A program made the position numbers and the translations under genes. DNA of 64,000 nucleotides, taken from Verrucomicrobiota bacterium (GTDB taxonomy: Bacteria > Verrucomicrobiota > Verrucomicrobiia > Opitutales > Opitutaceae). Shown one piece after another: positions 3,684 through 21,582 of the stretch. Location: positions 1 through 64,000 of the forward strand of contig CANIWJ010000002.1 in NCBI GenBank assembly GCA_947471035.1. Direction: 5' to 3'. The notes under the pieces are model-generated. The model was not told the DNA's origin, made no database searches, and saw nothing but the letters and a program-made list of their open reading frames with translations. How positions within the stretch are numbered: the first letter of the stretch is position 1; each line of letters starts with the position of its first letter.

Positions 3684-4805
3684 ATGCCACCCCGCATACC
3701 CCTTTATCGCATAGTGTTGGCGGCCGCATGCCTGATATTCTCCACTGCTTTCACAAGTGCACAGACCGAACCCAACCAGATTGGGCAGCGGGTCGAACTT
3801 CAGCTCGCCAATGGTGACCGACTCACGGGTGAGCTCATTTGGCGAGCCGATGGCAAGCTTCGTTTCCGATCTCCTATTTTAGGCGACCTCACAATTGCCG
3901 AAACAGATGCAGCCATTTTGGAAACTACCGACCGCAACGACAATCCCGCCAACCCAAATACGGTAACGAGTCCACTAGCTAAAACAGTTTCTTTACCTGC
4001 GAAGAAATCAACAACTGCTCCAGCCATTACGCCAACCACTACCTCCACACCGGCGGTCGCTTCCGTTCCCTCCGCCAGCCCCGCAAACACCAAAATCCCT
4101 CCGATAAAACCTTGGAAGGGTAAGCTGGAGTACGGCTATGTTCAGCAGAGTGGTCTCAAGGATACGCTAAGCTACAACTTACGAGGCGAAGCCGAAAAAC
4201 CGATCGGTAAACATACCCTCAAAGCCACCGGTCGCATTCTCTACGCGGAACAAAACAAACGCCCAAGCGCTGATCGCACCGACTCAAACTTCCGCTGGCG
4301 CTACCAGATTTCCAAACGGACTTTCGCTCAGGCTCAAACCACCTACCTGCGAGATGACATCACCCAAATCCACGCCAACTTTGAGCAAAATGTCGGTCTC
4401 GGCTACCGCATCATCGACCTAAAGCGTCACGCGGTAAATGTCGGCGCAGGCATCACCGGCCAGTATCGCGACTGGGATGCCGGCACAAGCGGCTTCGCGC
4501 CCTATGGCGAGATATTCGAGGATTACACGTTCAAGATCAACGACCGGATCACGCTCAACCAAGATATCGTAGTCCAGTATTCTCCGGCCGACCGGGCCTT
4601 CAACATTCCCGCAACTGGTCGTCCAGCGCCGGTCAATCCTAACACGGAAAACTACAAGATCCGCTTTAACGGTTCGCTCCAAGGAAAAGTCACTGAGCGT
4701 ATTTCCGTAAACTTACGTTTCGAATACGAGTTGGACAACGCGATCCAACTTCAAGGCGCCCGAAAAAATCAACGCATAACCAGTTCTATCGGTTATGCGT
4801 TTTAA
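3684..4805 (+). CDS. DUF481 family outer-membrane protein
   Basis: This 373-residue exported protein has a signal peptide (hydrophobic core VLAAACLIFSTAF, probable cleavage after TSAQ). A short domain at about residues 30-80 (VELQLANGDRLTGELI) resembles a small SH3-like module common in front of DUF481. A Thr/Pro/Ala-rich linker covers residues 90-150. A C-terminal DUF481 domain follows, made of alternating amphipathic strands (YGYVQQSG, YNLRGEAEKP, QDIVVQYSP) and ending in the aromatic strand SIGYAF, as beta-barrel proteins do. DUF481 (YdiY-like) is salt-inducible in enterobacteria, but the function is unknown. I chose ATG 3684 over an in-frame TTG 36 bp upstream because it puts the signal peptide at the N-terminus. 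Confidence 0.75.
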   Translation: MPPRIPLYRIVLAAACLIFSTAFTSAQTEPNQIGQRVELQLANGDRLTGELIWRADGKLRFRSPILGDLTIAETDAAILETTDRNDNPANPNTVTSPLAKTVSLPAKKSTTAPAITPTTTSTPAVASVPSASPANTKIPPIKPWKGKLEYGYVQQSGLKDTLSYNLRGEAEKPIGKHTLKATGRILYAEQNKRPSADRTDSNFRWRYQISKRTFAQAQTTYLRDDITQIHANFEQNVGLGYRIIDLKRHAVNVGAGITGQYRDWDAGTSGFAPYGEIFEDYTFKINDRITLNQDIVVQYSPADRAFNIPATGRPAPVNPNTENYKIRFNGSLQGKVTERISVNLRFEYELDNAIQLQGARKNQRITSSIGYAF

Positions 4806-15826: not shown

Positions 15827-16750
15827 ATGAGCATTCTCATCACTCCGCAGACCAAGATCCTCGTCCAGGGCATCACCGGTGCCTTCGGGGCCAAACACGC
15901 CCAACTATCCCTCGACTACGGCACCCAGCTCGTCGCCGGTGTCACTCCCGGCAAAGGCGGACAATTCTTTGAACATGCCGGGCACAAGGTTCCGATTTTC
16001 AACTCCGTCCACGAAGCCGCCGCTGCCACCGGCGCGACCGTTTCCGTGATTTTCGTTCCGCCTCCCTTCGCCGCCGATGCCATACTCGAATGCGTGGATG
16101 CCGGCCTCGACCTCGCGGTCTGCATCACCGAGGGCATTCCCATCAAGGACATGATCCGCGTGAAGCGCGCCATTACCGGCAAGAAAACCCGCCTCATCGG
16201 CCCCAACTGCCCGGGCCTCGTCACCCCCGGTACCGGCGACAAGAGCAATGGCGGCTGCCGCATCGGCATCGCCCCCGGCTACATTCACAAAAAGGGGCAC
16301 GTCGGCGTCGTCTCCCGCTCCGGCACCCTTACCTACGAAGCGGTTTTCCAAATCACCTCTAAAGGCCTCGGCCAATCCACCTCAGTGGGTATCGGTGGCG
16401 ACCCCGTCAATGGCACCAGCCACCTCGACGTGATCAAGCTCTTCAACGAGGACCCCGACACCAAGGGCATCATCCTCATCGGCGAAATCGGCGGCAGCGC
16501 CGAAGTCGAAGCCGCCCGTTGGATCAAGGCCAACTGCACCAAGCCCGTAGCCGGCTTCATCGCCGGCGCCACCGCTCCTGCCGGCCGTCGCATGGGCCAC
16601 GCTGGTGCAATCGTCGGCGGAGCCGAGGACACCGCCGCCGCCAAGATCGCCGTCTTCCAAGAGTGCGGCATTGAAGTCGCCGTCACTCCGACCGACATGG
16701 CCGACGCGCTCCTCCGCGCCGCCGCCAAAAAAGGCGTTAGCCTCGCTTAA
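15827..16750 (+). CDS. sucD: Succinyl-CoA synthetase alpha subunit
   Basis: This 307-residue subunit binds CoA and carries the phosphohistidine intermediate. It has the CoA-binding Rossmann part ([18 protein letters not shown]), the [12 protein letters not shown] loop, the [20 protein letters not shown] segment and the active His in [10 protein letters not shown] near residue 258. Length is slightly above the usual 290 because of a longer loop around residues 130-145 ([13 protein letters not shown]). It is co-transcribed with sucC and followed 41 bp later by a strong terminator. Confidence 0.97.
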
Positions 16751-16791: not shown

Positions 16792-16823
16792 CGCCCTCGT
16801 CGCAACCGCGACGAGGGCGTTTT
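16792..16823 (+). terminator. Intrinsic terminator of sucCD
   Basis: A perfect 12-bp GC-rich stem (CGCCCTCGTCGC / GCGACGAGGGCG) with an AACC loop is followed directly by TTTTATTT. This is a textbook Rho-independent terminator. Confidence 0.93.
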
Positions 16824-16903
16824 ATTTGGAGGGAAACTCCATTGCTCGTCGCCGCACCGACTAGACCGAAAAATTTAACATCAACAAACTCCGAGCAAAA
16901 AAC

Positions 16904-16932
16904 GGTCGGCACCTGATAAATCAGGGCCGACC
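16904..16932 (-). terminator. Terminator of the small basic gene pair
   Basis: A GGTCGGC/GCCGACC stem is extended by an inner CCTGA/TCAGG stem with one bulged base and a TAAA loop. On the minus strand it is followed by a GTTTTTTG tract (16897-16903). It ends transcription of the two small minus-strand genes. Confidence 0.8.
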
Positions 16933-16959
16933 GGCTACGCTGAAAGACGTTTTGTTGAA

Positions 16960-17061
16960 CTACCGGGAGTTCTTCTTTTCGCGTTTTTCTGCTTTTTTCT
17001 CCGCTGGGGATTTAAGCGGCTTTTTCTTGGTCTGTTTTTGGGAATTTTGAGATTTGGCCAT
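16960..17061 (-). CDS. 33-residue Lys-rich small protein
   Basis: A short reading frame starts with ATG at 17061 and ends with TAG at 16960. The product begins MAKSQNSQKQTKKKP and is dominated by Lys, Glu, Ser and Gln, ending in EKREKKNSR. It has no signal peptide, membrane segment or Cys. It is fully hydrophilic and probably disordered, or helical when bound to a partner. I infer a nucleic-acid or ribosome-associated role from charge alone. Support for it being real comes from the dedicated minus-strand terminator 28 bp downstream and a similar tiny basic gene 39 bp upstream on the same strand. I do not recognise a family. Confidence 0.6.
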   Translation of the reverse strand: MAKSQNSQKQTKKKPLKSPAEKKAEKREKKNSR

Positions 17062-17100
17062 AATAGTAAGAAGTCCGAGTTTTTGAGCGGAGAGCGAGTC

Positions 17101-17244
17101 TTACTTTTTCTTATTAGCCGCGATCTTGGCCTTGGTGGCCTGCTGTGCGTTGACGAGTGCCTGTTTTTGCTGGTTCACGCCATCAGTCTTTGACTGTTTT
17201 TGTGATGCTTTTTTCTGCGTGGATTTCGGAGACCGGTCGCCCAT
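17101..17244 (-). CDS. 47-residue Lys/Gln-rich small protein
   Basis: The frame runs from ATG 17244 to TAA 17101. The product begins MGDRSPKSTQKKASQKQSK and ends AKIAANKKK. It is rich in Lys, Gln, Ser and Ala with almost no hydrophobic residues, and its C-terminal half could form an amphipathic helix. Small hypothetical proteins starting MGDxSPK are, as far as I recall, found in many Gram-negative genomes, but I know no function. It lies upstream of the 33-residue gene in the same direction, with a GGGGA-rich stretch (17245-17252 read in reverse) in front of ATG. Together they look like a mini-operon. Confidence 0.62.
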   Translation of the reverse strand: MGDRSPKSTQKKASQKQSKTDGVNQQKQALVNAQQATKAKIAANKKK

Positions 17245-17502
17245 GGTGGGGATTCTTTCGTTAAGTTACCTCACCGTCGGAATGTTTGTTTCCCCGAAGG
17301 CGTGACTATCTATCCTGCCACAAACCCCAAGTAGCAAGCTCCGCGGAAAGATTAGTAAGTGTTTCAATATAAGCCGAAAAAGTAACCATCCGGTTTATTC
17401 GCGCAAAAATGCGGATTAGCGACGACGCAAAGGATCGCCTGTTTTTTAACACGCCCGCCAGTTTAAACCTGCAAATCGACGGCAGATACCCTCAATCAAC
17501 TC

Positions 17503-20500
17503 ATGTCGCGCTCCCCTCGCTTCTGGCTGCTAACCAGCGTTTTTCTCCTCACCGCCACGCTACTGGTTTTACGAAACGTCCCGGAGGCAAGCTTCCCTGC
17601 ACCTCCACAAACCCGTTCAGAGTCCCTAATTCGTCAGCAACCAATCGCTGCGGTCCCATTTTCACAAAAGACTTCTGTTACCGGAAACGAACTCCACCCA
17701 GTCAGCATTCCACTTAATTCGGCATTCCTTGCGTGGACGCAGCGCTACATCGCCGCCTCAGCCCTCGCACGCAAGTCACTCCTGCAAGAGGGCGTCGCAC
17801 TCGCTAAAGAACGACTCCCCCAGCTCGCCGCGTTAATTCGCAACGACCCTCGTGCAGCGCTCGCCGCCGCCATACCCCGCGAACTCCGCAGTCAGCTCCC
17901 TGCCGAGATAATAGCCGAGTTGGAGAGTCTCGTATCCGCCCGATCAGAACTGGCCGTCATACAAACATGTCTGCACCCGCCAGGAACCTCCCACGATCAC
18001 GCCGACGACCTCTATCGCGCCACCGTGATCAACAACCGCGAATACCGCGTCCACGTTTACGGATCCCGCCTAACCGACGCCTCTTTGCCCCAAACCTCAC
18101 TAATCGGAATCGCCGTGGACCGCGATCTCGCCATCAGCGAAAGCCGTTTCCGAGTCCTCGCCAGCGGCGAGACCCTCGACGGCCGCCCGCTCTCCGCCAA
18201 CGAGCTTGCCGTAGAAGCAAACGGTCAAATCTCCCGTCTCGCGTCCCCCGATGAACTGCCCGCTTTCGCCAACAACCTAATCATCTCAGAGATTAATCCG
18301 GTAATTAACGAAGCCGACACCGGTGCCGGTTCCAGCGGCGTAACCGGACGCCCCACTCAAGCTTGGACCCACGGCGACAAGAAGCTGCTCGTGATCCGCG
18401 TGGACTTCTCCGACCTCCAGGGAACTCCGATCAACAAATTCGACGGTAACGCTGAAATCACCCCCGCCTATATCCAGAACGTACTTAACGGAACCAATGG
18501 GGTACGCGCTTTTCTCCAAGGAAACAGCTTCGGTAAAACAGATCTCATTTTCAGTGAATCCACAGATGTCACACCCGTTCTGCGTATGCCCAATACCGCC
18601 ACGAACTACGCAACCACCGGTGTCAACGGCGACAATAGTCAGCTGCATACGGATGCCCGCACCGCAGCCGCTGCAGCCCCAGCCCTCTACAACCTCGCCG
18701 CGTACGACCGGATAGCGGTGGTATTTTCCTACCTCGGAGACATTCCCGGTTCAAAAATCACCTACGGAGGCCTGGCCAACATCACCGGTGCCAACCTATG
18801 GGTCAACGGAGCCTTCGATTTGCGGGTCGTCGCCCACGAACTCGGCCACACCTACGGCCTCCGACACTCCAACCTCTGGACCGTCGCTGACGGAAATCCT
18901 GTCTCCCCCATCGGCACATCCCTCGAATACGGCGACCCCTTCGACATCATGGGCGATGGCGATTACTTCGCCTACGATTTCAGCCACTGGAATAAAAGCC
19001 TCCTGCAATGGCTGCCCGACAGCAGTGTGACCCTCGCAACCATCGGCAACACCTACCGGATCTACCGTTTCGACTCGGCGACCGCTGATCTCACCCTACC
19101 CCGCGCGCTCAAAATCGTCCGCGACAATACCCGTGACTACTGGATCGGCTACAGACGCGGCCTCGACAATACCGCCACCGACGGCGGCGCTTACGTCCTC
19201 TGGGGCTACAACAGCGCGCAACAGGGTAATCTGATCGACCTTCTAACTCCGGGATCAAGCCCCGCCGACGCCCCGCTCCCCTTACTAAACACCTTTAACG
19301 ACACCACCGCCGGCATCAACATCCGCCCCACCGCCCAAGGCGGCTCCGGAGCCGAAGAATGGCTCGATGTTCAGGTTACTTTTCAACCCCGTATTCAGTG
19401 GGCCAAAACCGCCTATCTGGTAAACGAACAGGGAGGTAGCGCCGTGCTCTCCGTCACTCGTTCCGCCAACGCCTCCGGCATCGTATCGGTCAACTACACC
19501 ACCAGCGATGGCACTGCGCTCGCCACCTCGGACTACACCACGACCGGCGGCACCCTCACTTGGGCCGACGGCGACACTGCGACCAAAACAGTCACCATCC
19601 CAGTGACCGCCGACGCACTCGTCGAGGGAACCGAAAGCTTCTCCGTCACTCTTTCTTCGGTAAGCGGAGGCGTAATCGCCGACAACGCCACAGCCACAGT
19701 CACCCTGGCTGATCCTGGTGCACGTGATACGACCTTCGCCGCCAACTTCATCAACAACACAGTCAACCGCGTGCTCGTGCAGCCCGACGGCACCTTGTTA
19801 ATCGCCGGTTGGTTTGGCCTTTTACAGGATGCCAACTTTAGCAATTACAACTACGGTCGCATCGCTCGAATTTCCGCTACGGGCGCGCTAGATACCGGCT
19901 TCAATCCCGGCTCTGGTGCAAACGGAACCATCTACGCTCTCGTTCGCCAACCGGACGGAAAAATTCTTATCGGCGGGTCGTTCACCAGCTTTAACGGCAC
20001 CACGCGAAACCGAATCGCACGCATTAACACCGACGGATCCCTAGACACCACTTTCGATCCCAGCTCCGGGGCCGACGGCACCGTTTACACCATCCTCCTC
20101 AAACCCGACGGCACTGTCCTGATAGGAGGAAGCTTCTCCCACTATAATGGCGCAACCCGCAACGGACTGGCCCTTCTCGACCACACCGGAAGCCTTGATA
20201 ATACCTTTGCCGACTTCACCGGTCCCACGGTTTTCAGCATCAAAGCCCTCGCACTTCAAACAGACGGAAAACTTCTTGTTGGCGGCTCCTATTACCATTC
20301 CACCGGAAACTTACGCGCAGGTCTCAAAAGACTAAATACCGACGGAAGCGTGGACGCCACATTCAGTGGTTTAATCGAAGGTGCCAGCGATGCATTCGAT
20401 ACCCAATACCTCGGCGACATCCAAGAAATCGCCATCCAACCCGACGGAAAAATCCTGGTGGCGGGTGATTTCTCCCAATTCAACGGCACCGCTCGAAACG

Positions 20501-21582
20501 GTATCGCCCGTCTCACTAATACCGGCGCACTCGACACCACCTTCAACCCTGACGCCAACGCGCTAGTCTCCGCCCTTCTCCCTCTGCCCGACGGCTCTCT
20601 CCTGATCGGCGGTGACTTCACCACTATAGGCGGAGCTACCGCCACCCGGATCGCCCGCCTGAGCGCATCCGGCTCCCTCGACACCTCCTTCGCTGCCGCT
20701 GGCGGCCACGGGGGCACGGTCGAAGACTTCGCGCTACAAAGCGACGGCAACGTGATTCTCGCCGGCGATTTCGCCTCCTTTCAAAGCGCTTCGCCTAGCC
20801 GTCCAATCTGGAGACTCGTCCCCGGCCTTAGTGCCACGCCCGGGATTGTGCAATTTTCCGCCGACGCCGCCACTGGTGTTGAAGGCACCTCGACCACCTT
20901 CACAGTTACGCGCACCGGCGGTTCCCTCGGCGTATTAACTGTAGGCTACTCCACCGTGGCAGGCACGGCCACTACCGCTGACTACACCACAACCGCAGGC
21001 GTTTTGACTTGGGCCGACGGGGATGCGGCTGACAAAACCATCACCATTCCCATCACCGCCGACGCTTTGGCCGAATCCTCCGAAAGTCTCGTTCTAAACC
21101 TAGGCGCGCCGCAAATCGGGGGCACCCTCCTTGGCGACCGTCAGCAAGCCACCATCACGGTCTCCAGTGCCTTCGTCGCATGGCAAAACTCCTCCTTCAC
21201 CAACTCCGAACTGTCTGACTCCGCCATAAGCGGCGATACCGCCGACCCTGATTCAGACGCATTCGCCAATCTTGCAGAATTCGCCTTTGGACTGGCAGCT
21301 AAAACATCCAACTCCAGCGGAGGCCCCACCACCGCGATTCAAAACATCAACGGCACCGACTACCTGACCATTACGTTCCACCGGCGCGCACCCACGCTTG
21401 ACCTTGCCTACGCGGTGCAAACCAGCGGCGACCTCACCGGAGCTTGGACAACGGATGCAGTCCAGGTCGGTTCTGCCACCTCCAACGGAGACGGCACCGA
21501 AACCGTTACTTACCGCGACAGCGCGACTATAACCGGCACAGCCAAGCGCTTCCTCCGCATCCAAATCACCCGCACCCCCTGA
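17503..21582 (+). CDS. Secreted metzincin-like metalloprotease with Calx-beta and delta-60 repeats
   Basis: This 1359-residue exported protein has an N-terminal hydrophobic signal/anchor at about 5-25 ([17 protein letters not shown]). A protease-like domain follows, with [11 protein letters not shown] at about 445-455, the HExxHxxGxxH zinc motif of metzincins. [10 protein letters not shown] about 30 residues later is a plausible Met-turn, as in M11-type gametolysins. A Calx-beta domain lies at about 630-740, about seven delta-60-type repeats ([23 protein letters not shown]) at about 750-1105, and a second Calx-beta domain at about 1115-1225. The end has an Asp-rich Ca-site-like segment ([17 protein letters not shown]) and a beta-sandwich, as in many large Verrucomicrobia proteins. 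Likely a cell-surface or secreted, Ca-binding protease. Single gene. Confidence 0.88.

Follow-up and report, generated by a model that had tools for sequence, protein, structure and literature searches.

A conserved leader hairpin upstream of two tiny Lys-rich protein genes in Verrucomicrobiota

Are two very short, Lys-rich reading frames that follow each other on a Verrucomicrobiota contig genuine genes, what sets their expression, and in which process would their products take part? The frames lie on the minus strand of the window, the whole 64,000-nucleotide stretch analyzed here: MGD (17101 to 17244) encodes a 47-residue Lys/Gln-rich peptide beginning MGDRSPK, and MAK (16960 to 17061) encodes a 33-residue Lys-rich peptide beginning MAKSQNSQKQ. 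An earlier note on this DNA had described them as a translated mini-operon with its own terminator, had likened the start of the longer peptide to that of small hypothetical proteins present in many genomes, and had considered a nucleoid, ribosome or RNA-binding role.

Organization and coding capacity of the unit

MGD and MAK are separated by 39 nt (17062 to 17100) and are followed on the same strand by an intrinsic terminator (16897 to 16933), in which a hairpin (16903 to 16933) runs into six T (16897 to 16902). This hairpin with its T tract has a predicted stability of -25.2 kcal/mol (z -5.4), which none of 200 shuffled sequences reached, and it was not listed by a simple ungapped terminator scan of the window because the stem contains a bulge. 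The locus therefore presents the marks of an operon, namely close, co-directional genes and a GC hairpin with a T tract. The frames, their spacing and the hairpin with six T had been given exactly to the base in the earlier note, whose unit of two genes and a terminator stands but overlooked the conserved promoter and leader hairpin upstream of MGD.

Upstream of MGD we identified a -35-like hexamer, TTGCTA (17332 to 17337, minus strand), whose position is conserved over 49 aligned loci, and, 17 nt away, a -10-like hexamer, GATAGA (17309 to 17314, minus strand), for which the family consensus is GGATAA or GGATGA. Relatives carry TTGCTA or TTTACA, about 17 nt and GATAAx at a near-fixed distance upstream of the leader. 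A consensus scan reported no sigma70-type promoter above threshold upstream of MGD, so the promoter call rests on conservation and not on consensus score; on this basis we infer that the unit uses a sigma70-like promoter. Between promoter and MGD lies a 42-nt leader element (model R1; 17263 to 17304, minus strand), composed of a hairpin and a GAGnCAAC tail, and a Shine-Dalgarno-like GAAAG (17255 to 17259, minus strand), read from the sequence, appears as GAAAGGA in many relatives. The unit is flanked by a convergent plus-strand frame (15827 to 16750), which we take to be the succinyl-CoA ligase alpha subunit, and by a divergent 1359-residue frame starting at 17503. A strong plus-strand terminator (16792 to 16819) behind the convergent frame faces the minus-strand terminator of the mini-operon. 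The divergent frame (17503 to 21582, plus strand) shares its intergenic region with the MGD promoter, and its translation presumably comprises a zinc-protease-like motif, Calx-beta-like stretches and repeated units.

Both peptides have a net charge of +10, a pI of 10.6 and no aromatic residues, and among the 232 ATG frames of 30 to 100 residues in the window they alone contain at least 35% Lys plus Gln, in line with the hydrophilic, Lys/Gln-rich character noted before. Pairwise comparison with the window copy gave dN/dS values of 0.027 to 0.129 for MGD (computable in 10 of 15 comparisons) and 0.023 to 0.063 for MAK (7 of 11, plus one pair without non-synonymous change), values being given only where dS was computable and a non-synonymous change was present, since the remaining pairs have saturated silent sites. 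The synonymous-rate comparison proposed in the earlier note thus returned purifying selection (0.02 to 0.13 where measurable). Pooled pN/pS was 0.20 for MGD and 0.076 for MAK, and the variable columns at codon positions 1, 2 and 3 numbered 21/12/42 among 47 MGD codons and 6/3/26 among 31 MAK codons. Together with the adjacency of MGD and MAK, the dN/dS values and codon-position bias back the earlier proposal that these are translated small genes, and they give good support to MGD and MAK being real genes under purifying selection in genus and family. That the frames are untranslated and the transcript a non-coding RNA, as their shortness and their lack of annotation in the libraries used would allow, is already contradicted by the pooled pN/pS, by the third-position bias and by the occurrence of MAK alone elsewhere, and we give this reading almost no credence.

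Certain peptide positions are invariant (MGD.SPK and QK). MGD was modeled as one long helix, predicted over residues 6 to 45, and MAK with a helix predicted over residues 19 to 32; these single-helix models have a mean pLDDT of 74 to 76 and carry no functional signal. Profile searches of Pfam and NCBIfam returned no model matching MGD or MAK, those of PHROGs gave profile matches only at E 0.24 to 0.51, which we took as noise, solved structures yielded nothing credible for either protein, and a literature search found the peptide strings in no paper. Homology between MGD and MAK was rejected (6 aligned columns, probability 1%).

A leader hairpin confined to MGD and MAK

Comparison of upstream regions revealed a strongly conserved element just before MGD, ACGCC-nn-CGG-GGAAACnAACATT-CCG-nn-GGTGAGnCAAC, whose hairpin (17272 to 17302 in the window, minus strand) consists of the arms CGCC/GGTG and CGG/CCG, a 2-nt internal part and the conserved loop. 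In an alignment of 49 sequences, 48 of them distinct, changes on both sides occurred in 7 of 10 pairs and 85.8% of cells were paired, as against 39 to 49% with slid partners. The covariation score was reached by none of 500 shuffles, a control that related sequences can exceed by kinship alone, so that the slid control and fully restored stems (L045, L056 and L091 among them) weigh more. G-U was the commonest pair at two positions (23 and 27 of 48), and the many G-U pairs argue for an RNA rather than a DNA operator. We consider it well supported by these alignments that the leader is a structured element, with a covarying helix 5' of the gene, that is conserved across genomes. The minimum-energy fold of the window's own 78-nt leader contains the upper stem only, and a second hairpin (TGAG/CTCA) was rejected since it did not rise above shuffles (160 of 500). 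Rfam has no match to the leader; the matches at E up to 10 within 16850 to 17600 belong to three other families, lie below the gathering score and fall off the leader. Since the promoter-like elements stand at a near-fixed distance upstream, the transcript should begin at about the hairpin. Downstream of MGD, four loci (L071, L101, L103 and L105) carry a conserved hairpin (CTGTCTC...GAGACAG type), with no clear T tract behind it.

Searching 57 whole genomes with the leader model gave 13 matches at E<=1.4e-5, of which 12 stand directly before MGD and one, in genome G035, stands 25 nt before a lone MAK. Since all 13 precede MGD or a lone MAK, the leader serves MGD and MAK alone. Among 288 genomes of the phylum, all eight matches of that strength likewise precede MGD or MAK, and neither gene lies near the 10 weaker matches. 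At the inspected loci, weaker matches adjoin neither gene, except for two that precede MGD; three weak matches of the 57-genome set had no locus and lie outside those inspected. The 80 MAK loci contained 20 leader matches at E<0.001: the leader precedes MGD in all 18 loci where MGD is present (once as a 24-residue remnant), at least eight of which apparently coincide with rows of the leader model, and it precedes MAK in two of the 62 loci with no MGD nearby. In two loci where MAK lies upstream of MGD (L206 and L223), the leader is still directly before MGD. Among the matches listed from the scan of the species collection described below, the 80 contigs that were kept comprise 48 that gave model rows, eight held-out contigs that match the leader at E<0.001, two that are cut off upstream (L080 and L083) and 22 without the leader, one of which (L109) has a weak match (E 0.22) in the expected position. 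L117, itself doubtful, is alone in having the leader among the contigs titled as other phyla, and members outside Verrucomicrobiota are without it as far as seen.

A wider leader regulon was considered and rejected: within the own genome, a pattern search gave a single exact match, that of the MGD/MAK locus, and 57 places in all with up to two mismatches versus 27 for the reversed control, and the weak model matches lack MGD or MAK. In one locus (L200, 731 to 805), MGD is cut down to 24 residues, still preceded by the leader and followed by an intact MAK, and in two others (L033 of G035 and L201 of G756) the leader stands about 25 and 45 nt directly before MAK without MGD, which looks like a deletion of MGD from the unit.

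How tightly the two genes are coupled can be gauged from their spacing. Among the matches listed, a same-strand MAK lies within 134 nt of MGD in 20 of 79 MGD loci (19 downstream, one upstream), one further locus has MAK 4.2 kb away, and over 177 loci counted as distinct genes, 27 of 101 MAK have MGD within 500 nt. The full set of leader, MGD and MAK is present in a cultured relative, Verrucomicrobia bacterium IMCC26134 (L051). Because most MAK are without MGD, and few of those have the leader, the pair is not obligatory; judged by these positions, MGD and MAK are linked partners.

Distribution and gene neighborhood of relatives

Of 57 genomes, 19 have relatives of MGD, the own genome counted, and 17 have relatives of MAK; within the family MAK occurs in 99 of 250 genomes, and within the phylum in 38 of 288. 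MGD occurs in 10 of 240 genomes of the phylum and in 4 of 377 from the phylum of a Proteobacteria-titled contig, three of these four being weak (E 8e-5 to 6e-4). A scan of the species collection returned at least 587 pattern matches; among the matches listed, 128 encode relatives, of which 80 were kept, and relatives occur on contigs titled Verrucomicrobiota, Proteobacteria, Acidobacteria, Chloroflexota, Rhodothermaceae and Abditibacterium. The family of small hypotheticals named in the earlier note thus finds support as a patchy one, with members under the titles of several phyla. A wide occurrence of such peptides in Proteobacteria found no confirmation: for L117, titled Betaproteobacteria, 1 of 299 genomes of its phylum matched, and this was its own genome, for which reason we suspect that the contig, which carries a Verrucomicrobiota-type leader, may be misbinned. 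A phage origin was rejected, as viral contigs gave 96 pattern matches and no relative is encoded by any of them, and a BLAST search of plasmids gave no match, a result weakened by the low-complexity filter of BLAST. One Rhodothermaceae-titled contig (L086) has two near-identical MGD copies (423 to 554 and 3823 to 3954) 3.3 kb apart.

Clustering of the frames around MGD and MAK disclosed two recurrent neighbors, which Pfam identified as RNA_pol_Rpb6 (omega, rpoZ; E 3e-8) and RRM_1 (E 2e-22). Using tblastn over 177 loci (0.88 Mb), we located 20 rpoZ places, each no more than 600 nt from MAK or MGD, and 12 RRM places, 10 of them within that distance. As many MAK loci span only 1.7 kb, proximity by itself tells little there, and the weight lies in the number of rpoZ places against the roughly 0.2 expected in 0.88 Mb if each genome of about 4 Mb has one. 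Counted as distinct genes within 600 nt, rpoZ accompanies 19 of 101 MAK and 2 of 92 MGD, and RRM 6 of 101 MAK and 4 of 92 MGD. In 14 cases MAK lies 26 to 218 nt downstream of rpoZ on the same strand, including three loci (L252, L253 and L256) with MAK 26 to 31 nt behind the rpoZ match, and elsewhere other orders and orientations occur.

The rpoZ cases come from genera g1, g7, g15, g19 and g49 and from locus L064, and the RRM-MAK cases from g4, g7, g15, g44 and g179. That the orientations vary and that five or more genera of the family are represented argues against a single inherited event, and the concentration of rpoZ neighbors in g7 and g49 (16 of 20, eight each) implies few independent events. 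No rpoZ or RRM gene lies near the window's own copy, and this absence, together with shared descent, limits the neighborhood evidence. Clustering of longer frames around MGD showed no convincing conserved neighbor, RRM genes being probably hidden by longer antisense frames. As the main functional evidence, the rpoZ/RRM neighborhood suggests a role in RNA or transcription. It is this part of the role raised in the earlier note that is favored, and nothing was found that points to a nucleoid or ribosome family.

A possible role in RNA or transcription

We propose that the locus is one self-contained transcription unit, in which a sigma70-like promoter would be followed by the leader hairpin, MGD, MAK and the intrinsic terminator. 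Its products, two unrelated, strongly basic, partly helical small proteins, would most likely have RNA as their target, or else nucleic acid at RNA polymerase or close to it, and would serve as small accessory factors in transcription or RNA metabolism. The hairpin would form at the extreme 5' end of the mRNA and set the expression of the unit, most likely through post-transcriptional control in which the conserved GGAAACnAACATT loop is read either by a protein, perhaps MGD, or by a small RNA. We hold this reading, two nucleic-acid-binding small proteins that work with RNA or RNA polymerase under the control of their leader, to be slightly better than an even bet. Computation established purifying selection on both genes, their co-linearity, the confinement of the leader to them and the rpoZ/RRM neighborhood in relatives. 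Charge and helical models suggest nucleic-acid binding, and gene neighbors point to a partnership with RNA polymerase or RRM proteins. The leader probably has a regulatory action: its dedication to MGD and MAK suggests unit-specific post-transcriptional control, perhaps by the unit's own product, and it may alternatively be an mRNA-stability hairpin or a small-RNA target.

The low-complexity Lys/Gln/Ala composition could also describe unspecific polycations, such as stress or desiccation protectants or nucleic-acid counter-ions, and the leader, with a hairpin predicted to start around +1, could then serve only to slow mRNA decay, as 5' stems at a transcript start protect mRNA. Mere charge does not call for the invariant MGD.SPK and QK positions, nor mere stability for a sequence-conserved loop, and the rpoZ/RRM neighborhood also speaks against this explanation, which we consider possible but rather unlikely. 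A second proposal makes the leader a DNA operator with dyad symmetry that is bound by a transcription factor; it draws on the imperfect inverted repeat at the promoter and the hairpin predicted near +1, but the abundant G-U pairs break the DNA symmetry, the loop is conserved as well as the arms, and no target other than MGD/MAK appeared in 57 genomes, which makes an operator improbable. As for a small-molecule riboswitch controlling the pair, a short structured leader with a conserved loop has the right appearance, but the second helix is unsupported, no expression platform was seen and the leader is linked to MGD/MAK only, when riboswitches usually head several operons; we regard this as very improbable.

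The proposed leader-controlled unit has parallels among known systems. Genes for ribosomal and other RNA-binding proteins can have autogenously regulated leaders that are short, structured and gene-dedicated; the MGD/MAK leader is likewise short, structured and dedicated to a small basic protein gene, but no known family matches the leader or its genes, and binding of the product to its leader is only putative. In the Downstream-peptide and glnA leader motifs a structured RNA also stands upstream of a tiny conserved peptide gene, but the MGD leader differs from them in sequence and host group, and Rfam places no match on it. A passage in PMC9333190 links bacterial RRM proteins (Rbp1 of Synechocystis) to cold adaptation; MGD and MAK resemble these in being small and, by their RRM gene neighbors in relatives, RNA-related, but Pfam finds no RRM domain in either. 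Similarly, rpoZ is a frequent neighbor and, in some genera, the apparent operon partner of MAK, but neither MAK nor MGD is an omega homolog by Pfam. By these comparisons the unit would resemble a small gene that encodes an RNA-related protein and is controlled by its leader, and it stands outside every Pfam, NCBIfam and Rfam family tested; the global catalogue of microbial small ORFs introduced in PMC11364881 is the type of survey in which such unnamed families may be listed.

Two unnamed small-protein families thereby gain hard evidence of being genes, and a candidate cis-regulatory RNA absent from Rfam is added. The neighborhood provides a functional lead, to RNA polymerase omega and RRM proteins, in a phylum with little-studied transcription accessory factors. 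In the boldest version, which we hold doubtful, a new class of leader RNA would be bound by its own tiny basic protein, forming an autoregulatory loop for two factors at RNA polymerase (omega) and RRM proteins, a Verrucomicrobiota accessory module unnamed in the annotation libraries used. If an MGD or MAK protein does read its own leader, protein and leader would form one of the smallest autoregulatory pairs of RNA and protein, and one easy to reconstitute.
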